Positions 321 through 16,050 of a stretch of DNA of 17,637 bases are shown here, in pieces. The translations under genes were made by a program, and so were the position numbers. Below the pieces are notes generated by a model, which did no database searches, had not been told where the DNA came from, and worked only from the letters and a program-made list of their open reading frames with translations. Positions within the stretch are counted from its first letter, which is position 1; each line of letters opens with the position of its first letter. The DNA is taken from positions 1 through 17,637 of the forward strand of contig JAUWXV010000051.1 of assembly GCA_030616165.1 (NCBI GenBank). The letters are read 5' to 3'. Source of the stretch: a bacterium (lineage in GTDB: Bacteria > SM23-31 > JAUVVT01).

Positions 321-1526
321 TTAATGTCTCTTTCTCGGTCCAGCCCCTTCAGGGAATGGAATCTCAGAGGAGAATGGTGACATCTCTCTTAATGATTCGA
401 TTATCTCGGGCAAAACCGAGAGAACTTCATCCATCTCCTGTTTTGTATTTTCTTTCCCGAGACTGAATCTCACAGAGCCCTGGGCTAACGCTGGTTCTAT
501 TCCCATAGCAAGAAGCACATGAGAAGGTTCAAGAGACCCGGATGTGCAAGCAGAACCACTTGAAACTGCCATCCCTTTTCCATCTAACTTCAACATTATA
601 GATTCCCCCTCAATGAATTCAAAGCATACATCAAGTATGATAGGAAGTCTTTTTTCTGGATGTCCATTAACATAGACGTTATTTATTTTCTCTGTAATAC
701 CGTTTTGTAAATAGTCTCTCAATTCTCCTATCTTTTTATATATATTGTTTTCTATATCTTTTTTGGCAATTTCTCCTGCTTTTCCGAATCCTATAATTCC
801 GGGAACATTCTCGGTTCCTGCTCTTTTATTCATTTCATGGTGTCCACCGTGAAAGAGAGATTCTATTTTCACCCCTTTTCTAATAAACAGTGCTCCAATT
901 CCTTTTGGTCCATATATTTTATGGGCAGACATAGATAAAAGGTCGATGTTCATCTTATTAATATCGATTGGTATTTTACCAAATGATTGTATAGCATCTG
1001 TATGAAAGTATATTCCAGACTCTTTTGCAATTCTCCCAATTTCTTCAATAGGTTGAATTGTCCCGATTTCGTTGTTTGCGTGCATTATGCTTATAAGTAT
1101 GGTCTTGTCGGTGATTGCGCTTTTCAGGGCATCAAGGCCAACTGTTCCATATTTATCTACTGGAAGATATGTTATGTTAAATCCTTTCTTTTCAAGATAT
1201 TGACATGTATGAATGACCGCGTGATGTTCTATTTTGCTTGTAATTATCTGGTTCCCTTTTGATTGATTGGCAAAAGCAACTCCTTTAATGGCGGTGTTAT
1301 CTGCTTCTGTTCCCCCGCTGGTAAAATATATTTCATTAGGTTTTGCTGAAATAACCTCCGCAATTTTTTCTCTTGAGTTCTCTACCGATTTTCTTGCTTC
1401 TCTGCCCAACCAATGAAAGCTCGAAGGATTACCGAATGATTTTTTTAAATAAGGTAACATTGCTTCATATACTTCATCTAATATATATGTCGTTGCGCTG
1501 TGGTCAAGATAAATTCTTTTTATCAT
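321..1526 (-). CDS. Cysteine desulfurase, NifS/IscS type (class I)
   Basis: A PLP enzyme that takes sulfur from L-cysteine, giving alanine and a protein persulfide used for Fe-S clusters and thiolated cofactors; cytosolic. Numbered from the start chosen here (401 residues), the N-terminal YLDHSATT motif is present, the PLP lysine is K203 in SAHK, and the persulfide cysteine is C327 in the SSGSACTSGS loop, the longer loop typical of the IscS/NifS class. HH in the IEHHAVIH motif supplies the PLP-stacking histidine. The length is normal. I placed the start at 1526 because MIKRIYLDHSATT matches family N-termini and AAGGGA lies just upstream. An in-frame ATG at 1547 would add seven residues. No IscU, IscR or thiolation partner gene is adjacent, so its sulfur acceptor cannot be inferred and nifS versus iscS is left open. 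The family call is very secure. Confidence 0.95.
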   Translation of the reverse strand: MIKRIYLDHSATTYILDEVYEAMLPYLKKSFGNPSSFHWLGREARKSVENSREKIAEVISAKPNEIYFTSGGTEADNTAIKGVAFANQSKGNQIITSKIEHHAVIHTCQYLEKKGFNITYLPVDKYGTVGLDALKSAITDKTILISIMHANNEIGTIQPIEEIGRIAKESGIYFHTDAIQSFGKIPIDINKMNIDLLSMSAHKIYGPKGIGALFIRKGVKIESLFHGGHHEMNKRAGTENVPGIIGFGKAGEIAKKDIENNIYKKIGELRDYLQNGITEKINNVYVNGHPEKRLPIILDVCFEFIEGESIMLKLDGKGMAVSSGSACTSGSLEPSHVLLAMGIEPALAQGSVRFSLGKENTKQEMDEVLSVLPEIIESLREMSPFSSEIPFPEGAGPRKRH

Positions 1527-1605
1527 ATTTTTTCCCTTTTCCAACATTTTCTTTTCAATTAAATAAACATAAATAATTTAAGAAAAGTTCAGTAAATTAT
1601 CAATG

Positions 1606-1634
1606 GATATATTTTTTCATTTTTGGAATGTCAA
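1606..1634 (-). promoter_or_regulatory. Sigma-70-type promoter for the cysteine desulfurase gene
   Basis: On the minus strand there is a perfect -35 box TTGACA (plus positions 1629-1634), a 17-base spacer and a -10 box TATATC (1606-1611). Transcription would start near 1599, leaving a leader of roughly 50-70 bases. This implies that the desulfurase is transcribed apart from the TGS GTPase gene upstream. The position between two same-strand genes and the ideal spacing make this the most convincing promoter in the window. I saw no operator-like repeat around it. Confidence 0.6.
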
Positions 1635-1705
1635 TCTGGTGTATAAGGTTATATTTATATTGTTATTATATGAATTATGAGTGATTGCTTATTGCATTAT
1701 TACTA

Positions 1706-2695
1706 TCAAATGTGAAATTCGATAATGTCCTCATCTTCCACGACATAGTCCTTTTGGACTTTTTGACCATCATATTTTCCGCTGCCCCAGATTCTCGCAA
1801 ATTTAAGATTCTGTTCAAAATCCTTATGTATTGACCTTGCTACATCAATCAATGTAGTCCCTTTCTTGAAAACAAAAGGTTCATTAGAATCTGCTTTTTT
1901 GCCCGGGATTTTTGAATATACTTTCACTATATCAAGTATCTTATAAACCTCGTTTTTTAGTTTGTCAAAGTTCTTTCTTTCTAAAGAAGATACACTTATT
2001 AAAGGAAATTTATCTTTATAAAGGTCGCAAATAATTTTAAAGGTTTCTGAAGATTGGGATATATCATTTTTATTGCAAACTATAGTTGTTTTTTTCAATA
2101 ATTTCACTTCATTTTTTGTGTCATCAGACATTTTTCCAGTCAATTTTATGTTATATTTATTCAAGACATTTATGATATCCTCTATTTGTTCTATTGGTTC
2201 AGATGAGGATAAATCTGTAATAAGTAAAGCAGCGTCTGCGCTTCTTATTATAGATGGCATCCAGTTTTCCATAAAACTGCTTGTTATTGGTGGTGTATCA
2301 ACGAGTTGAATTTTAATATTTTCATACTCCATCATCCCGGATTGTGTCAATCTTGTGGTGTATGGATATGGAGCAACCTCTGGAGATGCGTTTGTTAGAC
2401 TCGAAAGCAGGAGTGATTTTCCTGTATTAGGGTGTCCTATCAATACCACCTGTCCTGCTCCTTCTTTCGGAACGAAATCGATTAATCCTCTTTTACTGGC
2501 GTGACTTTTTTTACTGGGTTGCTTTTTAAGTTTTGATATTTTTGTCTTTAACTCTTTCTGGAGTTTTTCAGTCCCTTTGTGTTTGGGCATTATCGCAAGC
2601 ATTTCTTCTAAAAGAGTGACCTTTTCTGGAATCGATTTTGTCTCTCTGTATCTTTTTTCTACTTCAAAGTATTGTGGGGGAAGATTTGCTGGCAT
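1706..2695 (-). CDS. DRG/Obg-like GTPase with C-terminal TGS domain
   Basis: A P-loop GTPase of the TRAFAC/Obg-DRG type, probably ribosome- or RNA-associated in the cytosol; the exact role is unknown. Residues 1-75 form a charged, lysine-rich helical extension. The G domain spans about 80-255: G1 GHPNTGKS (87-94), a G2 threonine in PYTTR, G3 DTPP (133-136), G4 NKND (208-211) and G5 SVSS (234-237). The TGS domain is at 264-329, with a typical end (DYVVEDEDIIEFHI). The final glycine of the G3 DxxG motif is proline here. As I recall, bacterial members of this subfamily share that feature, so it need not mean loss of activity. GAGGT precedes the ATG with suitable spacing. It is divergent from the cold-shock gene and seems to have its own promoter. 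Confidence 0.85.
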   Translation of the reverse strand: MPANLPPQYFEVEKRYRETKSIPEKVTLLEEMLAIMPKHKGTEKLQKELKTKISKLKKQPSKKSHASKRGLIDFVPKEGAGQVVLIGHPNTGKSLLLSSLTNASPEVAPYPYTTRLTQSGMMEYENIKIQLVDTPPITSSFMENWMPSIIRSADAALLITDLSSSEPIEQIEDIINVLNKYNIKLTGKMSDDTKNEVKLLKKTTIVCNKNDISQSSETFKIICDLYKDKFPLISVSSLERKNFDKLKNEVYKILDIVKVYSKIPGKKADSNEPFVFKKGTTLIDVARSIHKDFEQNLKFARIWGSGKYDGQKVQKDYVVEDEDIIEFHI

Positions 2696-2736
2696 ACTTT
2701 TTTGACCTCATCGAATTTATGAAAAAAACTCGTCTA

Positions 2737-2766
2737 ATTATAATCGTAGTATAATTATAAATTCAA
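2737..2766 (-). promoter_or_regulatory. Possible promoter for the TGS GTPase gene
   Basis: The minus strand reads TTGAAT (plus 2761-2766), an 18-base spacer, then TATAAT (2737-2742). A transcript would have a leader of about 35 bases containing the GAGGT ribosome site. The -10 box lies inside an AT palindrome, TAATTATA / TATAATTA (2735-2742 and 2750-2757), which could be an operator. The region is so AT-rich that chance matches are common. Confidence 0.3.
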
Positions 2767-2931
2767 TTAATTTAAAAATCAATAAAAATATAAAAAAATA
2801 TATATTTTGATTAAAAAAAACTGAAAATGAAGAAAAATTTTATTATATTATAATAAATATTGTCCCGATTTTTATTGGAATTTGGAGTTAATTTAATAAT
2901 ATTCGTATAATTTTTTAGGAGAAATAAAAAT

Positions 2932-3141
2932 ATGCCTTCCGGTAAAGTAAAATGGTTTAATAACAGGAAGAAGTATGGATTTATAATTAAAGATGATGAT
3001 GGAAAAGACATTTTTTTTCATATTAAAGGGATAAGTGACCCAATGCTTAGAAATATTATATCTTCTGACCAGAATGTAACTTTTTCAATTATGAAAGACG
3101 AGAAAGCAGAAAGAGCAGTAGATGTTAAATCAAAACTGTGA
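2932..3141 (+). CDS. Small cold-shock-domain (CspA-like) protein
   Basis: A 69-residue single cold-shock domain, the usual CspA-family length, predicted to bind single-stranded RNA/DNA as an RNA chaperone in the cytosol. The N-terminal GKVKWFN strand is canonical. RNP1 reads KKYGFI (13-18) where most homologues have KGYGFI or KGFGFI. RNP2 reads DIFFHI (26-31) for the usual DVFVHF type. The aromatic nucleic-acid-binding residues W8, F9, Y15, F17, F28, F29 and H30 are kept. AGGAGA (2917-2922) precedes the ATG by nine bases. The 236-base AT-rich gap upstream could hold a long structured leader, as in cspA genes, but I could not identify one with confidence. Confidence 0.88.
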   Translation: MPSGKVKWFNNRKKYGFIIKDDDGKDIFFHIKGISDPMLRNIISSDQNVTFSIMKDEKAERAVDVKSKL

Positions 3142-3186
3142 AAACTATGAAAAGCCGGTAGTGTTTGTGAAAAAATTATTGAATAA

Positions 3187-3214
3187 TTGCAGAAATTAAG
3201 TTTTATTTCTGCAA
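3187..3214 (+). terminator. Perfect hairpin downstream of the cold-shock gene, possible terminator
   Basis: A 10-bp perfect inverted repeat, TTGCAGAAAT (3187-3196) and ATTTCTGCAA (3205-3214), with an 8-base loop, sits 45 bases after the cold-shock stop codon. It lacks a U-run on the plus strand, so it is not a textbook intrinsic terminator. It may instead protect the 3' end of the cold-shock mRNA. Confidence 0.4.
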
Positions 3215-3376
3215 AAACGATATGGTAACATAATACCAAAAATTTTCTTTTGTATAAAAATGAGTAATATCATTTTTTAGTATTTCGATGCTGATTTTAT
3301 TTCGGGAATTTGATTTTTCAACTTCTTAATAGAAATTTTTTAATTAAACTTTTTTAAAGGTTTAAGTTTAGGTAAA

Positions 3377-6300
3377 ATGAATTTAGATTTTAAAAAAATC
3401 GAGAATTGTTTTGTTATTTTGCTTGTATTTGTTTTATTGTTTTCTTTTGGAGGATTTCATCAGCCTTTGATTGCCCAGGTAAACGATACTTTGTACGCAG
3501 AGATATTGGGTCCTGAGAATCTCCAAACTCTTAAAAGCGGATTAAATACTTTATGGGGTTTTGTTTATGGACCGAGGCTTTCATTGTTAAATGAAGATGA
3601 TTTCAGTTGGTATTCGGATATAGATGGTTTTCTTGTGCACGGGAAGATTACTAATATTCATAAACTTTCTCCTGGAATACACCAGATTATTTTCACGGTA
3701 AAAAATGGGAATGGTTTTATAACAAGTGACACAGTAACTGCGGTAGTTCAAGATCAGTATATAGATAGAGAACCACGAGAAATTGATTACTCTATACCTG
3801 AATTTCCTGAGGATTATGATGGTGAAGGTGTGCTAGGAATTTGTATTAATGTGAGCAAATTGGGAGATGTTGACAGTGTTATGATTCTTGAAAATACAGT
3901 CAATGATTCAATTATAGAAGAAATGGCATTAAACTGGGCAAGAAATTGTAAATTTTATCCGGCAGAAGAGAGGGGTATTCCACAGAGCACCTGGATAGTG
4001 AGAAAATATAAGTTTCCTATAGATAAGGAGGAAATAGAATTAGCCAGAAGGTTAGATAGACCAGGGATTGTTCCTGACCGGGGCAGAGGCATCGCAACGA
4101 GCGAGCAGTTGAAGCGTAGAAGAGAAGAAGAGAGAAGAGTGCCCATAAATCTTGGAACTGGTGAGCCAATTGTGGTTACCGGACTTCCAGAGGCTGTTAT
4201 TCAGGGTTTTACAAAACTTTCAAAAGATAAAAAACCACTTGTTGGAATGATTAAAGCATGCATTAAGGTTGATTTTGCTGGTTTTATTACCGAGATTTTG
4301 ATTATTGAAAATACGTTTAAAGATGATTGGGTTGAGAAGGATTTGACAAAAATGCTCTATAATTCCCTTTATGAGCCAGTAACTGAAGATGGCGGTCCGG
4401 GTATAAGAGAATGTTATACTGCTTTTGTTGTTGAAGACAATTATTTTAAAGAGATGAAGAAGGGTGATTTTACTACGTGGAAGGATGTATATGGGATAGA
4501 ATTTGCTCAGTTGACTGAAGGTGATAATCCCGACTTTTCAGAGGTTGAGGGTGATGTTGAATCTGCTGTTGGTCTCTTCAGAATGATTGCTGAAATTACT
4601 CCTGAAGGGCAAATAAAAAATATAAAAGAAATAGAGAAAACTATTAACCGTAAAAATGTCAAAAATAGCTTTGTAGATACTTATAAAGAGTATGAATATA
4701 ATCCGGCGGTAGTTAATAATTTTCCAGTGAAGAGTTATATCCTGCCTTATTTTTCATTTAGCAATCCAGATTATTATCACAATAAAAGGATGCTGGATTC
4801 TTATAATTTAGGATTCCAGTTTTATGTTAAGGGTGATTACAAATTGGCGATAGAAGATTTTAAAGATGCATTGTTCCGGGATTCAAAAAATGATTTTACT
4901 GGATTAATACCTCAGATAATTTACTGTTATGAATTCAAAAAAGAGAAGGATAAAAAGAAAAAGCTTCAACTTTACGAGCAGGCAATAAGAAAGAATGCTT
5001 ATTATCAGAACTTTGAAATTTTTGAAAAGCTCAATGAAGACTATATAATCTTAAAAGAATCTCTTTCAAAGAATGTCTCGTTCTTTTCTCTTTTGTCTGA
5101 AGATCGGCATAACTTTAATGAGATATATTCGTTTTTTTCTGAATCTGATATGCCCCAGAACGAAGATGATCTTTATGCAGTTTACGATGAATTGAAATAT
5201 CCAGATAAAGCAAGAGAAGCTGGTCTTGAGGGAACTGTGGAGATAGCATTATATATTATACCGAGTGGAGATGGTGGTAAAGTAAAACATGCGAGAGTTT
5301 TAAAATCGATTGGCAATAAAGACTGCAATAAGGCAGCTTCAAAAGCAGTAAAGAAATTAAATTTTACGCCAGCAACACTCGAAGGCGACCCGGCTAATTC
5401 ATGGACAAGTATGCTAATAACCTTTTCACTTTCAGAAGAATTTATGCTCAGAGGGAGAAAGCCTATCCCTGATTCAGTCAGATATAAGAGAGACGAACCT
5501 TTGGAAAATGATAAATTAAAAAATTCTCTCCAGGTTAGTCTTCCTCTTATTCTGGTTAAAGGGAAGAGTAAGTTTTCAAAAGCAAAAGATGATACAAAAG
5601 GGTTTGTCAGAGCGTGTATTGAAATGGATAGCACTGGAATTGTTAGAAATATTCTTATACTTGATAATAAAGTTTCAAGAGATTCACTCGTTGCAGCAGA
5701 TGATTTTGCTTTAATGTTGGCAGGAAGTGTATTCGACCCGATAAATCTTAAAGGTGGACCTGAAAAACAGTCGTTCCTATGTTCTTTTAATATAAAAGAG
5801 AAATTTTTTACTTCACAGAGGAATTTAAGATTTAAAGATTGGTTAAGTGAAAATGCATTTAAATTTCCAGAGTTAAAAGAAGAATTTCAAACTGATTCTT
5901 TATTAGATAATGCCAATTTATCCATCGATTCAACTTCGCAGCAAGATTCAAATAAAAAATTGGTTAAAGCATCAGAAAATGTAAATTATAGATTTGTTAC
6001 AGATTGGAGCAAACTGGATGTAATTGTAAAAGAGGAGACCGATTCTACTACGGAGGGTGTTTTAGAATTTTTATTTAAAATCGATACCGATGGTAAAGTA
6101 ACAAAGTTGAAAGAAATGGCAAATTCACTTAAAAACGCAGGCAAACTAAAGGATAGGTTGTTTGAATCTATTGTTGATTATGATTTTAAGCCGGGTGCCG
6201 CGAAAGATGTTCCCACAAATTGTTATGTCCATAAAAAGTTCGCATTTCGCAGAAGGGACGAAGAAAGATTTAAAGATTTATTGAAAGAGAATAATTCAGC

Positions 6301-6928
6301 ATATAAAGAAGTTGTCAAGGGAAATGAAAAGAATGCATCAAAAAAGTTTGAAAAAATAGTAAAATCTGATTATTTCGGAGATTATTTATGGGTTTATCCT
6401 TATCTTGCTTCTTATTATCAAAAAAATGATAAGGTGTTAGATGCTATTTATTTATATTATGATGGCATAAAAAGATATGCTTTTTTAAATGATTTTGAAC
6501 GTTTGAATCATATTGCCGATGAATTGATGTTCCTGAGAAGGGCGGTTTGGAGTGGGGAGGATTTATATTCGCTTCTTCCGAGTGAAAAAAAATATGATGA
6601 AAAGGTATTGATTTCAATCCTCCCAGAAGAAAACAGACCCAAATTAATTGAAAGTTTAGATTCATTGTCAAATTATATCGAATATCCGAAACTTAAGGAT
6701 GACGAAATAATTAATAGTGGAACAGTAGTAGTTGCCGCACTTGTTGACAAAGATGGAAATATAAAGGAAACAGAAATAAAAGAATCTATCGGAAACAAAA
6801 AGTTTGACAAAGCGGCTGTTAATGCAGTAAAAAAATTAAAGTTCAAACCTGCAATTTATAATAATGAACCAATAGAACACTGGTTTAATGTCCCGGTCAA
6901 GCTTGATAATATAACGAGGAAAGAATAG
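3377..6928 (+). CDS. Large secreted protein with seven TonB-C-like modules, TPR-like blocks and an Ig-like domain
   Basis: An 1183-residue protein of unknown role, probably periplasmic. Residues 1-33 look like a signal peptide: a hydrophobic core at about 11-25 and a plausible cleavage site after LIA (33). Residues 38-125 resemble a bacterial Ig/PKD-like domain (WYSDIDG ... LSPGIHQIIFTV ... TSDTVTAVV). TonB-C-like modules follow at about 151-214, 288-352, 394-460, 606-685, 739-805, 892-957 and 1101-1176. The fourth and seventh are canonical: YPxxAR...EGTVEIALYI, a KSIGN turn, then KAVKKLNFTPA. The others are divergent. TPR-like helical blocks lie at about 470-565 and 965-1055. It lacks the proline-rich linker and ExbB/ExbD neighbours expected of a real energy-transducing TonB, so I infer a scaffold or binding role in the envelope. 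AGGT precedes the ATG closely. It is probably a single-gene unit. Domain families are seen; function is not known. Confidence 0.75.
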   Translation: MNLDFKKIENCFVILLVFVLLFSFGGFHQPLIAQVNDTLYAEILGPENLQTLKSGLNTLWGFVYGPRLSLLNEDDFSWYSDIDGFLVHGKITNIHKLSPGIHQIIFTVKNGNGFITSDTVTAVVQDQYIDREPREIDYSIPEFPEDYDGEGVLGICINVSKLGDVDSVMILENTVNDSIIEEMALNWARNCKFYPAEERGIPQSTWIVRKYKFPIDKEEIELARRLDRPGIVPDRGRGIATSEQLKRRREEERRVPINLGTGEPIVVTGLPEAVIQGFTKLSKDKKPLVGMIKACIKVDFAGFITEILIIENTFKDDWVEKDLTKMLYNSLYEPVTEDGGPGIRECYTAFVVEDNYFKEMKKGDFTTWKDVYGIEFAQLTEGDNPDFSEVEGDVESAVGLFRMIAEITPEGQIKNIKEIEKTINRKNVKNSFVDTYKEYEYNPAVVNNFPVKSYILPYFSFSNPDYYHNKRMLDSYNLGFQFYVKGDYKLAIEDFKDALFRDSKNDFTGLIPQIIYCYEFKKEKDKKKKLQLYEQAIRKNAYYQNFEIFEKLNEDYIILKESLSKNVSFFSLLSEDRHNFNEIYSFFSESDMPQNEDDLYAVYDELKYPDKAREAGLEGTVEIALYIIPSGDGGKVKHARVLKSIGNKDCNKAASKAVKKLNFTPATLEGDPANSWTSMLITFSLSEEFMLRGRKPIPDSVRYKRDEPLENDKLKNSLQVSLPLILVKGKSKFSKAKDDTKGFVRACIEMDSTGIVRNILILDNKVSRDSLVAADDFALMLAGSVFDPINLKGGPEKQSFLCSFNIKEKFFTSQRNLRFKDWLSENAFKFPELKEEFQTDSLLDNANLSIDSTSQQDSNKKLVKASENVNYRFVTDWSKLDVIVKEETDSTTEGVLEFLFKIDTDGKVTKLKEMANSLKNAGKLKDRLFESIVDYDFKPGAAKDVPTNCYVHKKFAFRRRDEERFKDLLKENNSAYKEVVKGNEKNASKKFEKIVKSDYFGDYLWVYPYLASYYQKNDKVLDAIYLYYDGIKRYAFLNDFERLNHIADELMFLRRAVWSGEDLYSLLPSEKKYDEKVLISILPEENRPKLIESLDSLSNYIEYPKLKDDEIINSGTVVVAALVDKDGNIKETEIKESIGNKKFDKAAVNAVKKLKFKPAIYNNEPIEHWFNVPVKLDNITRKE

Positions 6929-6985
6929 ATATTTTTAATATAGTAAGTTGACTCTGCATCTTCAATTTTAATTATAATTCTGCCA

Positions 6986-7041
6986 AATGTAAACCCATCT
7001 ATAGAATAATCTATATAATGTAAACCCATCTATAAAATAAT
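6986..7041. repeat. Two 25-base direct repeats
   Basis: The sequences at 6986-7010 and 7017-7041 are the same 25-mer (core TGTAAACCCATCTATA) with one mismatch, six bases apart (period 31). They lie in the 265-base gap after the multi-TonB_C gene, which otherwise shows only AT-rich sequence and a weak inverted repeat (TATGAAAG 7142-7149, CTTTCATA 7167-7174). With only two copies it is not a CRISPR array. It could be a local duplication or a paired protein-binding site. Confidence 0.6.
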
Positions 7042-7193
7042 ACAGATTAATGATAAACTTTATTTGAAATTTCCTTTTACTCGCTGAATGCAGGAATGAG
7101 CCTCAAAACATTTTTATATTAGATTTTCTACAGAACTTCTTTATGAAAGAAAAGTATATTTTTTATCTTTCATATATTTCTTTTCAATATAAA

Positions 7194-7511
7194 CTATATT
7201 TCAATTCCCTTTGATTTAATCTCATCTCCAACAAAGGTGCCGCTGTTTTCAGAGTCAAATTCCTCTTCAGTTAATCCTAATATTTCCATAGGCTTTTTTA
7301 TCCCTATACGAGCGCGTCCCAAAAGACACAATCGCTCCCAAAGATCCATATCTTTAAAATCATCAGAAACAATAAACAGGTCTATGTCACTATGTTCTTC
7401 GACTTTCCCTTTTGCATGAGAGCCATAAATGATAATCTTTTTAACCTTAATTCCCATTCCTTCAAGTTTTTGCTTATATTCAGTTATAATTCGATAAATT
7501 TCTTTATCCAT
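7194..7511 (-). CDS. Minimal nucleotidyltransferase (MNT), partner of the HEPN protein
   Basis: A 105-residue protein of the polymerase-beta-like nucleotidyltransferase superfamily (NTP_transf_2). It carries the exact GSx10DxD signature: G30-S31, then D42 and D44 in SDIDL. E76 in the next strand (KPMEILGL) may be the third metal ligand. Known MntA relatives adenylylate and silence a HEPN partner, which is the likeliest role here, although some pairs of this type have unknown function. Its start lies 28 bases inside the end of the HEPN gene, and GAGAGG (plus 7519-7524) sits seven bases before the ATG, so the two are translated from one mRNA. The short C-terminal tail has no further domain. Confidence 0.85.
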   Translation of the reverse strand: MDKEIYRIITEYKQKLEGMGIKVKKIIIYGSHAKGKVEEHSDIDLFIVSDDFKDMDLWERLCLLGRARIGIKKPMEILGLTEEEFDSENSGTFVGDEIKSKGIEI

Positions 7512-7870
7512 TGAAAAACCTCTCTTGTTTTTGATAAAATTGATTCTGCCCTCTCCTTCGAAAAATCTTTAAGTATCTTCTGGAAGTCACTTGGGTATCT
7601 TGTAACCACACTTAGATTTGTAATTTCTGCTATGAAATTTTCAATATCTTTATCTGGAGATAATTCCGCAATTCCCATAAGATATTCTAAGTCGTGAATT
7701 TTTGGTGGCGTTTTACCTGTAATTTCCTCAACTTTAGATTTAAGTGCTTTCTCCAGAGCGAGATGACACATAAATACTGTATATATATACCTCCCTGAAT
7801 TAAACATATGTTCGGCAGTATCTAAATCGTATTGAGCAGAATCTAACAGGTTTTTTACCTCCTTTTTCAT
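7484..7870 (-). CDS. HEPN-domain protein paired with MNT
   Basis: A 128-residue all-helical HEPN-domain protein of the COG2250-like type. Typical features are the N-terminal SAQYDLDTAEHMFNSGRY segment, CHLALEKALKS (35-45), the PKIHDLEYL motif (57-64, H59) and TRYP (90-93). The Rx4-6H motif of HEPN ribonucleases is not visible after any arginine, so RNase activity is doubtful and a binding or regulatory role with the MNT is possible. GGAG lies seven bases before the ATG. The gene starts 24 bases after the sugar-kinase stop and overlaps the MNT gene by 28 bases, so all three are probably one transcript. It could be a toxin-antitoxin pair of HepT/MntA type, but that is inference from family and layout only. 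Confidence 0.85.
   Translation of the reverse strand: MKKEVKNLLDSAQYDLDTAEHMFNSGRYIYTVFMCHLALEKALKSKVEEITGKTPPKIHDLEYLMGIAELSPDKDIENFIAEITNLSVVTRYPSDFQKILKDFSKERAESILSKTREVFQWIKKFIEL
7519..7524 (-). promoter_or_regulatory. Internal ribosome binding site for the MNT gene
   Basis: GAGAGG on the minus strand, seven bases before the MNT start and inside the HEPN coding sequence. It supports the ATG at 7511 and coupled translation of the pair. Confidence 0.6.
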
Positions 7871-14100: not shown

Positions 14101-16050
14101 CTAAATTTTTATAACTTTTTCATAAATCTTGGCATTTATGAATAAATCTAAGAGGTCTTTATCGATATGCTTGCTTTCAACTTCCATTTTTAATATATTG
14201 AGGGCTTTTTCAAATGGGACTGCCTTTTTATATGGTCTGTCAGCGGCGGTCAGTGCATCGAATATGTCCGATATTATTATCATTTTTGCCTGTAGAGGTA
14301 TTTGTTCTGAATTGAGTTTTCTTGGATATCCGACTCCATCAAGTTTCTCGTGATGTGCATGTGCAATATCAGGAATATCTTTAAATTCTTTAGTCCATGG
14401 AACCTGGCTTAAAAATTTAAAAGAGTGTGTAACATGGGATTCTATTTCAAGTCTCTCTTGCTCGTTTAAACTTCCTTTTTTTATTGAAAGGTCTTTGTAT
14501 TCTTCAGGAAATAATAGATTTGTCAAACTGAGTTCAGGGGATTTGAATGATTTTTCTACGATTTTTTTCAATGTTCTTAGATTATCTTCTTCAAGTAAAG
14601 TTGGTTCATTGCACTCAATAACCGTTTTTGAATATTCATCTAACTCACGAATTTTATTATTATATTCTTTCTCGATTGTTTTAAAAAACTCGTCGAAGTT
14701 TGTATCTCCGCGTTTTAAAAGATAGTCTAATTCCTTTTTTAGTTTTTCGATTTCGATATTTTGTTTTATAAATGTGAATCTGTTTAAAATATCTTTCAGT
14801 TTAAGTGGATAAAGTTTTTTTTCCTTAAGAAGGACATTTTCTTTGACGCCGACTTTACCAAAATCATGAAGCAGAGAAGCATATCTGATTTCTTTTATTT
14901 GTTCTTTAGTGAACTTTACATCGGCATATTTACCTGTTTCAGTTTTATCAACTTGTTCGGCAATTCCGACGGTTAGTATAGCAACTCGCTGTGAATGTCC
15001 TGAGGTAGTGGGATCTCTTGATTCAATCGCTGTAACTGATGCTTTAACGAACCCTTCAAAGAGGTTTTCGATGCTCTGATAAAGAAGGTTATTTTCAATG
15101 GAGACCGCAGCCTGTCCCCCAAGTGAATAGAGCAGATCTACACATCTTTTGTCAAATGGTATAACTTCGTTATCAAAATCTTCAGGAGTCTTTAAGAGTT
15201 TTTCCATACTTTTCTTTCTGTTAATAAGTTGTATTACTCCAATTACTTCATCCACATGATTCTTTAGGGGGGTAGCTAACATAGATTTTGTGCGGTAACC
15301 AAATTTAATGTCGAAACTTTTATTTACTTTATATTCTTTTTCTTGTGGAATTTTATATACATCCTTGATGTTGAGTGTTTCACCTGTTGCTGCTATATAT
15401 CCGGCGATGCTTTTTTTTGAAATTGGCATTGTGAATTCCTGATAACTGATATTTAGAGAATCTGTCTGACTGAGTTTGAATCTTAAATATTTTTCTTTTT
15501 CCTCATTATCTACTATTAAGTAAAGACTGCCTGCATCTGCGCTTGTAATTTCACGGCTTTTGAGAAGAATCTGATGGAGAAGTTTATCGAGGTCTTTTTC
15601 TACCATAAGCATTGAGCCGATTCGGGAAAATTCTTCTATTTCTTTGGTTCGAAGTTCTAATTCTTTTTTAAGAATGGTCGACTGGTATTTTAATTGAAGG
15701 TCAGAAAAATGTTTTTCAATCTTTTTTGGAAAAATTACTTTACTGGTAGGTATTTGGATTATATCATCAATGAAGTCAATGTCCTGAGTTAGTTCAGTTC
15801 CATCTTCTATAATAAGAATAATAGATAGGAAAATTTCATCGGGAATTTTTCGGATTTCTTTGAATTTTTCGAGGTTTTTTTTAAGAAATTCGTTATTCAC
15901 AAGAAAAACAGAAAGAGAATCTTTGAATAATTCCTTTGTGATAGTTTGAGTTTTAATCAGTTTTATGCCATCTTTTTCAAGAAATTCATGAAGTTCTTCA
16001 ACAGGAACTCCCTCCGAATATATTACATTTTTGTTACGAATCGTATTCAT
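14101..16050 (-). CDS. GAF domain plus HD-GYP-type phosphodiesterase
   Basis: A 649-residue signalling protein without membrane segments. Residues 1-115 could be a degenerate receiver-like domain; where a phospho-Asp is expected it reads FLVNNEF. A coiled linker (117-145) leads into a GAF sensor domain (about 150-325). The HD domain follows: GHS (H352), HDFGK (395-399), SHVTHSF (H539), AHHEKLDGVGYP (H566/H567, GYP 574-576) and D595 in IISDIFDALTAADRPYK. This is the HHExxDGxGYP signature of c-di-GMP phosphodiesterases. About 110 extra charged, helical residues (405-525) separate HDxGK from the next histidine. I recall a similar insert in delta-proteobacterial relatives, so it may mark a subfamily. 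It starts 74 bases after the ispH stop and may share its transcript. The Shine-Dalgarno site is weak. Confidence 0.85.
   Translation of the reverse strand: MNTIRNKNVIYSEGVPVEELHEFLEKDGIKLIKTQTITKELFKDSLSVFLVNNEFLKKNLEKFKEIRKIPDEIFLSIILIIEDGTELTQDIDFIDDIIQIPTSKVIFPKKIEKHFSDLQLKYQSTILKKELELRTKEIEEFSRIGSMLMVEKDLDKLLHQILLKSREITSADAGSLYLIVDNEEKEKYLRFKLSQTDSLNISYQEFTMPISKKSIAGYIAATGETLNIKDVYKIPQEKEYKVNKSFDIKFGYRTKSMLATPLKNHVDEVIGVIQLINRKKSMEKLLKTPEDFDNEVIPFDKRCVDLLYSLGGQAAVSIENNLLYQSIENLFEGFVKASVTAIESRDPTTSGHSQRVAILTVGIAEQVDKTETGKYADVKFTKEQIKEIRYASLLHDFGKVGVKENVLLKEKKLYPLKLKDILNRFTFIKQNIEIEKLKKELDYLLKRGDTNFDEFFKTIEKEYNNKIRELDEYSKTVIECNEPTLLEEDNLRTLKKIVEKSFKSPELSLTNLLFPEEYKDLSIKKGSLNEQERLEIESHVTHSFKFLSQVPWTKEFKDIPDIAHAHHEKLDGVGYPRKLNSEQIPLQAKMIIISDIFDALTAADRPYKKAVPFEKALNILKMEVESKHIDKDLLDLFINAKIYEKVIKI

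Follow-up and report, generated by a model that had tools for sequence, protein, structure and literature searches.

A putative exported protein carrying seven TonB_C-type modules in the genome of an uncultured bacterium

Seven modules in one reading frame

The window analysed here, a stretch of 17,637 nt, contains an uninterrupted 1183-aa ORF at positions 3377 to 6928 of the + strand, exactly the coordinates and length given by the initial annotation, and the encoded protein carries exactly seven TonB_C-type modules (m1 to m7). The TonB docking domain is normally present once, at the tip of a membrane-anchored nutrient-import protein. It is usually read as the part of an energy transducer that does the work, and matches to curated models are named "TonB family protein." From its N-terminus, the array protein is laid out as putative signal peptide, conserved domain, A(m1), [B(m2)-C(m3)-TPR-A(m4)], [B(m5)-C(m6)-TPR-A(m7)], and its features, together with two conserved neighboring genes, are as follows.

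3377..6928, + strand: 1183-aa ORF, putative exported seven-module TonB_C array protein (ORF and Pfam match)
3377..3475, + strand: putative signal peptide at the N-terminus (residues 1-33, up to LIA|Q) that lacks SxxxH (sequence reading, homologues, motif test)
3482..3769, + strand: conserved ~95-aa N-terminal domain, residues 36-131, Ig/PKD-like by pattern only (three-way conservation)
3824..4015, + strand: TonB_C module 1, residues 150-213 (clade HMM 42.9 bits, Pfam 22.1 bits, hhalign 99.0%)
4178..5404, + strand: repeat unit 1 (B-C-TPR-A), residues 268-676 (aligned to unit 2)
4229..4432, + strand: TonB_C-like module 2, degenerate, residues 285-352 (7.2 bits, hhalign 96.9%)
4577..4759, + strand: TonB_C module 3, residues 401-461 (19.7 bits, hhalign 96.1% as profile, 89.4% as single sequence)
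4772..5152, + strand: TPR block 1, residues 466-592 (TPR_1 21.8 bits against a cut-off of 27.8, AF2 helices)
5195..5431, + strand: TonB_C module 4, residues 607-685, with YP (Pfam 54.8 bits, clade HMM 69.5 bits, hhalign 99.7%)
5534..6883, + strand: repeat unit 2 (B-C-TPR-A), residues 720-1169 (aligned to unit 1)
5585..5797, + strand: TonB_C-like module 5, residues 737-807, the most degenerate of the seven (3.6 bits, duplication, AF2 beta-beta-alpha-beta)
6038..6247, + strand: TonB_C module 6, residues 888-957 (21.5 bits, hhalign 95.9% as profile, 91.1% as single sequence)
6260..6631, + strand: TPR block 2, residues 962-1085 (AF2 helices, VIA-align Z ~10.8)
6683..6904, + strand: TonB_C module 7, residues 1103-1176, with YP (Pfam 57.8 bits, clade HMM 66.8 bits, hhalign 99.7%)
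321..1547, - strand: IscS-like cysteine desulfurase, conserved neighbor (Pfam Aminotran_5; same gene beside a homologue)
1706..2695, - strand: TGS/Obg-type GTPase, conserved neighbor, divergently transcribed (Pfam; same gene beside a homologue)

Against Pfam TonB_C (PF03544), the whole protein scored 132.9 bits (E value, 5.8e-39) over four stretches, above the gathering score, and against NCBIfam TIGR01352 it scored 113.7 bits. When the segments were searched in isolation, m4 and m7 both exceeded the Pfam cut-off of 24.6 bits, m1 was borderline just below it, m6 was weak (14.0 bits), and no TonB_C match was identified for m2, m3, or m5. The array protein and its homologues were left out of a clade TonB_C HMM, for which 37 domains were taken from other proteins. 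This HMM identified seven domains and no more, at residues 150-213 (42.9 bits), 285-341 (7.2), 401-458 (19.7), 607-685 (69.5), 737-774 (3.6), 888-957 (21.5), and 1103-1176 (66.8); zero domains were found in the reversed protein. Using hhalign, the profiles of all seven modules reached 95.9 to 99.7% against TonB_C, compared with 0.2% for the Ig block, 0.1% for a TPR block, and 0.1 to 2.1% for reversed modules. The m2 and m5 profiles share rows, as do those of m3 and m6, so that the two members of each pair are not independent. With single sequences, 89% and 91% were obtained for m3 and m6, respectively, and 30% for m2; m5, at 96.7% as a profile with rows common to m2, fell to 7%. Chance or low complexity as the source of the modules was ruled out by the reversed-sequence controls.

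All seven segments proposed by the initial annotation were recovered by the clade HMM and hhalign, most of them within a few residues of where it had placed them. Its literal pattern of a dG turn and KxLxFxPA fared less well, being complete in m4 and m7 only and incomplete in the other five. By its own yardstick, profile hits in at least four segments would support the array and hits in one or two would refute it; plain Pfam passes m4 and m7 only, which taken by itself would come near to refutation, but the clade HMM and hhalign are more sensitive and give seven, so the count is regarded as settled. Modules 2 and 5 are degenerate, m5 most so, and independent support for both is weaker; module 2 of the class-level homologue described below scored 37.9 bits with the clade HMM, and m2 and m5 align to each other within an internal duplication. 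Modules 4 and 7 scored best with an HMM of TonB1-type proteins, while for m1, m2, m3, m5, and m6 the higher scores came from an HMM made for the TonB2-type paralogue in the Ton operon of the genome.

Residues 268-676 and 720-1169 are homologous end to end (24% identity; E value, 3e-38). From this alignment, the last six modules and the two TPR blocks are the product of an ancient tandem duplication of a B-C-TPR-A unit of ~410 to 450 aa. This duplication, absent from the initial annotation, accounts for most of the module count.

TPR-like blocks had also been proposed, and these find support in the sub-cut-off TPR_1 match of block 1, in helices of the AF2 models, and in a VIA-align Z of ~10.8 between the block 2 model (model residues 261-333) and TPR structures, e.g., 3ma5. 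The VIA-align rows were filled by this TPR block and carry no information on the TonB_C modules. The proposed Ig-like domain corresponds to a block conserved in all three family members, but its fold was confirmed neither by a profile nor by a confident model, with no Pfam match to residues 36-131 and an AF2 pLDDT under 50. The AF2 models, generated from four-row alignments, had mean pLDDT values of 53 and 45 and pTM values of 0.37 and 0.28; at this level of uncertainty they do not bear on how modules pack or dock, and they were used for secondary-structure order only. In these low-confidence models, DSSP gave a beta-beta-alpha-beta order in 7/7 modules and showed the TPR blocks as helical hairpins. 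Foldseek matches included the TonB CTD structures 5lw8, 6fip, 9dc4, 2grx, 2gsk, and 1xx3, as well as TPR structures.

Relatives and distribution of the array

Two relatives were identified. The first, from the same family (MAG CSMAG_1171, JAUVVT010000142.1), is 62% identical and adjoins the same IscS and TGS-GTPase genes; the second, related at class level (candidate division KSB1 MAG, QNDJ01000361.1), is 31% identical. Both are cut by contig ends and confirm the N-terminal half of the architecture. An alignment query of genome contigs returned just these two cut relatives and no full-length homologue, and a single-protein query of the contigs gave no match. A B-C-TPR profile searched across 290 diverse genomes found the unit in three only (the host and the two relatives), and the remaining matches were to a single TonB_C or TPR.

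The restriction of the family to three of the 290 genomes, together with the strong degeneracy of m2 and m5, would fit a decaying or neutral repeat expansion with no specific function, but such an origin is highly improbable given 1183 open codons, conserved synteny, and an old duplication that is still intact. In the comparison of the array gene with its same-family relative, codon positions 1, 2, and 3 were 71, 78, and 47% identical. Divergence is thus much greater at third positions than at the other two, which shows protein-level constraint on the array protein and likewise speaks against decay.

In surveys for TonB_C that covered 193 and 51 genomes, one other frame with at least three strong domains was present among the matches listed. 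This frame encodes an M56 protein from the same class as the host (M56/BlaR1-type; G005:C72, positions 1388-4540 of the stretch examined) and, like the array protein, carries TonB_C domains in tandem, in this case five. It differs in that it is a polytopic membrane peptidase, contains an ExbD-like domain and spacers rich in Pro, and has neither TPR nor an Ig-like domain; no Pfam M56 match was found in the array protein. In 20 chosen stretches around long or odd frames, single TonB_C domains were found on lipoproteins, signal-peptide proteins, solute-binding-like lipoproteins, and M56 proteins. The initial annotation had set the protein apart from anchored, single-domain TonB. As far as the anchor is concerned, this contrast is weakened, as unanchored single-domain proteins and M56 proteins with one or five domains exist in the sampled genomes. 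The novelty thus lies in the array and not in the missing anchor; the domain family is a known one, and its architecture here is new. In agreement with its description as previously unreported, no matching system was found in the literature searched, the coverage of which was incomplete, especially for subscription journals.

Anchor, export, and the Ton system of the host

The array protein belongs to the same C-terminal domain family as TonB (PF03544, TIGR01352), and m4 and m7 are clear members with YP. Unlike TonB, it has seven such domains, TPR blocks, and a conserved N-terminal domain, carries no SxxxH anchor or Pro-rich linker, and is not encoded beside exbBD. The absence of the anchor motif and of a proline-rich spacer, as originally annotated, was borne out in both cases. 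The SxxxH motor motif (S-x3-H, SHLS) was present in the N-terminal hydrophobic segment of none of the three family members, while it was identified in 7 of the 9 TonB1-type proteins examined (7/7 in-phylum, the 2 exceptions being from other phyla); TonB1 of the genome's Ton operon has SIALHIL in its helix. Pro content before module 1 was 4.4 to 7.0% in the three family members, compared with 14 to 20% in TonB1-type linkers.

The only hydrophobic segment of the array protein, of ~16 residues, lies near the N-terminus. The N-terminal segments of the three family members end LIA|Q, LIS|Q, and LYS|Q, respectively, which are putative signal-peptidase sites. The host genome encodes a type IX secretion system (T9SS; SprA_N and 28 sorting-tail matches), but a type IX sorting tail was absent from the array protein, whose C-terminal end is module 7, and periplasmic retention is therefore the simplest reading. 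Taken from the sequence, these features are consistent with export to the periplasm.

Because the SxxxH and Pro-linker tests failed, the protein was not read primarily as an "energy transducer." A giant TonB-like transducer, in which the N-terminal segment would act as an anchor coupled to the ExbBD motor and the array would reach the outer membrane, could still draw on the ~16-residue hydrophobic segment and on the ExbB homologues and TonB-dependent receptors of the host genome (15 receptor plug matches). The clade's TonB2-type proteins also lack the His motif, yet lie in an exbBD operon. Nevertheless, this alternative is improbable, as there is no SxxxH, Pro-rich linker, or linked exbBD, (A/S)-Q cleavage-like sites occur in 3/3 members, and the conserved domain starts right after the hydrophobic segment.

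The Ton operon of the genome is located elsewhere (C165) and comprises exbB, exbD, exbD, tonB1, tonB2, and SPOR, followed by sigma factor and anti-sigma genes; these names were read from the translations and go with matches to PF03544 and PF01618. No exbB or exbD accompanies the array gene in the 17,637-nt window, nor does a TBDT receptor gene or tol-pal gene lie beside it there. The other neighbors in the window include an MNT/HEPN-like pair and a sugar kinase; the array gene stands alone among them, and its context therefore offers no functional hint. A PADLOC scan gave no match for the array protein, and a promoter scan upstream of its gene found sites at about the chance number, with no excess.

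Docking and possible roles

With a probability of about 0.5, the array protein is a putative exported periplasmic docking scaffold and not an energy transducer. The C-terminal domains of TonB and TolA bind by beta-strand addition (PMC12204202; PMC10907165). TolA resembles the array protein in its homologous C-terminal fold and in this mode of binding (PMC12204202) but is anchored and single-domain, and the array protein scored 23.4 bits against tolA_full, far below the cut-off of 59.45. In the scaffold, signal peptidase would cleave the protein, which would remain in the periplasm. Modules 4 and 7, and perhaps m1, would then dock peptide strands of envelope partners by beta-strand addition, as in the TonB and TolA domains; these strands would be TonB boxes or other edge strands. 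The degenerate m2, m3, m5, and m6 may serve mainly for packing or spacing, and further partners could be bound by the TPR blocks. A combination of strand-docking modules with TPR partner binding would suit a protein that tethers envelope proteins to one another or acts as a buffer for TonB-box sites, without pulling.

The YP motif is a TonB-box contact (PMC4446302); it is kept in m4 and m7, is FP in m1, and is lost in m2, m3, m5, and m6. Binding of TonB boxes, raised by the initial annotation for the array, is accordingly possible for some modules and is weakened for these last four. More specifically, and only tentatively, the protein could be a soluble, non-energized, multivalent TonB-box or edge-strand receptor with TonB1-like and TonB2-like domains that clusters or buffers TonB-dependent receptors or envelope proteins.

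Two other roles were considered. Peptidoglycan binding or self-association has previously been suggested for some TonB-like proteins, and the TonB_C modules of a structural protein of the cell wall or septum could act in this manner. There is a precedent in the TonB-like SjdR, which acts on peptidoglycan structure and not transport, and to which the GltJ-type TonB C-terminus does not align (PMC8597729, PMC8262864). Multivalent arrays would also fit wall binding. However, Pfam and NCBIfam scans identified no known wall-binding domain, and the TonB-box contact motif is retained in the modules that most resemble canonical TonB, making such a role unlikely.

Membership in another envelope machine, in which TonB_C and TPR would be the assembly modules, is doubtful; such a machine could be a T9SS or a GltJ/AgmX-like trans-envelope complex. 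In its favor, the genome has a T9SS and encodes a TPR lipoprotein that is PorW/SprE-like and has TonB_C at its C-terminus (C235, positions 5281-7518 of the stretch examined; 150 bits against NF052312, below the cut-off of 250). This lipoprotein is, like the array protein, exported, with TPR and TonB_C and no TonB anchor, but it has one C-terminal TonB_C, a long TPR array, and a lipobox-like signal. AgmX/GltJ likewise uses a TonB-like C-terminal domain outside nutrient uptake (PMC8262864), and the array protein scored 65.2 bits against NF033768 (AgmX/PglI C-terminal domain), above the cut-off of 40; this is a TonB-like domain model that may fire on any TonB_C array. Against membership, no T9SS gene adjoins the array gene, NF052312 (PorW/SprE) was absent among the NCBIfam matches of the array protein up to an E value of 10, and AgmX/GltJ sits in the membrane as part of a motility complex, whereas the array protein has no such membrane domain.

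An unanchored seven-module array suggests that the TonB C-terminal domain lends itself to reuse as a module that can be stacked. Should the A-type modules bind TonB boxes in the absence of a motor, the array would provide a means to cluster or restrain outer-membrane receptors and a clean system in which TonB docking is separable from TonB pulling. Were the soluble-receptor reading true, the TonB docking domain would serve generally as a scaffold module and would not depend on the ExbBD motor.

The phylum from which the sequence originates is tiny and uncultured, and 6 genomes of this phylum were in the collection.

TonB_C domains in other envelope proteins

The genome that holds the window, G000, carries a second envelope protein that joins TPR and TonB_C without a TonB anchor, and multiple or C-terminal TonB_C domains were also found in proteins of other genomes:

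L032:5281-7518 (G000, contig C235), 745-aa TPR lipoprotein, PorW/SprE-like, with a TonB_C domain at its end
L030:1388-4540 (contig C72 of G005, same class), 1050-aa M56/BlaR1-type membrane protein
L079 (G134:C2) and L080 (G106:C147), lipoprotein-like proteins of about 700 to 720 aa with a C-terminal TonB_C domain

The TonB_C domain of the 745-aa lipoprotein scored 76 bits, and its match to the PorW/SprE (T9SS) profile reached 150 bits, below the cut-off of 250. Five tandem TonB_C domains and an ExbD-like domain were identified in the M56/BlaR1-type protein. Judged from their N-terminal sequence, the L079 and L080 proteins read like family-5 solute-binding proteins.

The Ton operon

The gene order exbB-exbD-exbD-tonB1-tonB2-SPOR-sigma factor-anti-sigma was conserved as an operon in L031 (G000:C165), L033, L035, L038, and L040. 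The SxxxH motif was present in tonB1; in the adjoining paralogue tonB2, the His was mostly missing from the helix, so this protein may not couple directly to the motor.

Other genes in the window

7194-7870, minus strand, small nucleotidyltransferase overlapping a HEPN-like ORF
14101-16050, minus strand, GAF and HD-GYP-type protein

The nucleotidyltransferase and the HEPN-like ORF are probably an MNT/HEPN toxin-antitoxin-type pair; the MntA-like match of the nucleotidyltransferase scored 28.6 bits, below the cut-off of 60. In the GAF and HD-GYP-type protein, an insertion of some 50 to 100 residues appears to interrupt the HD region.
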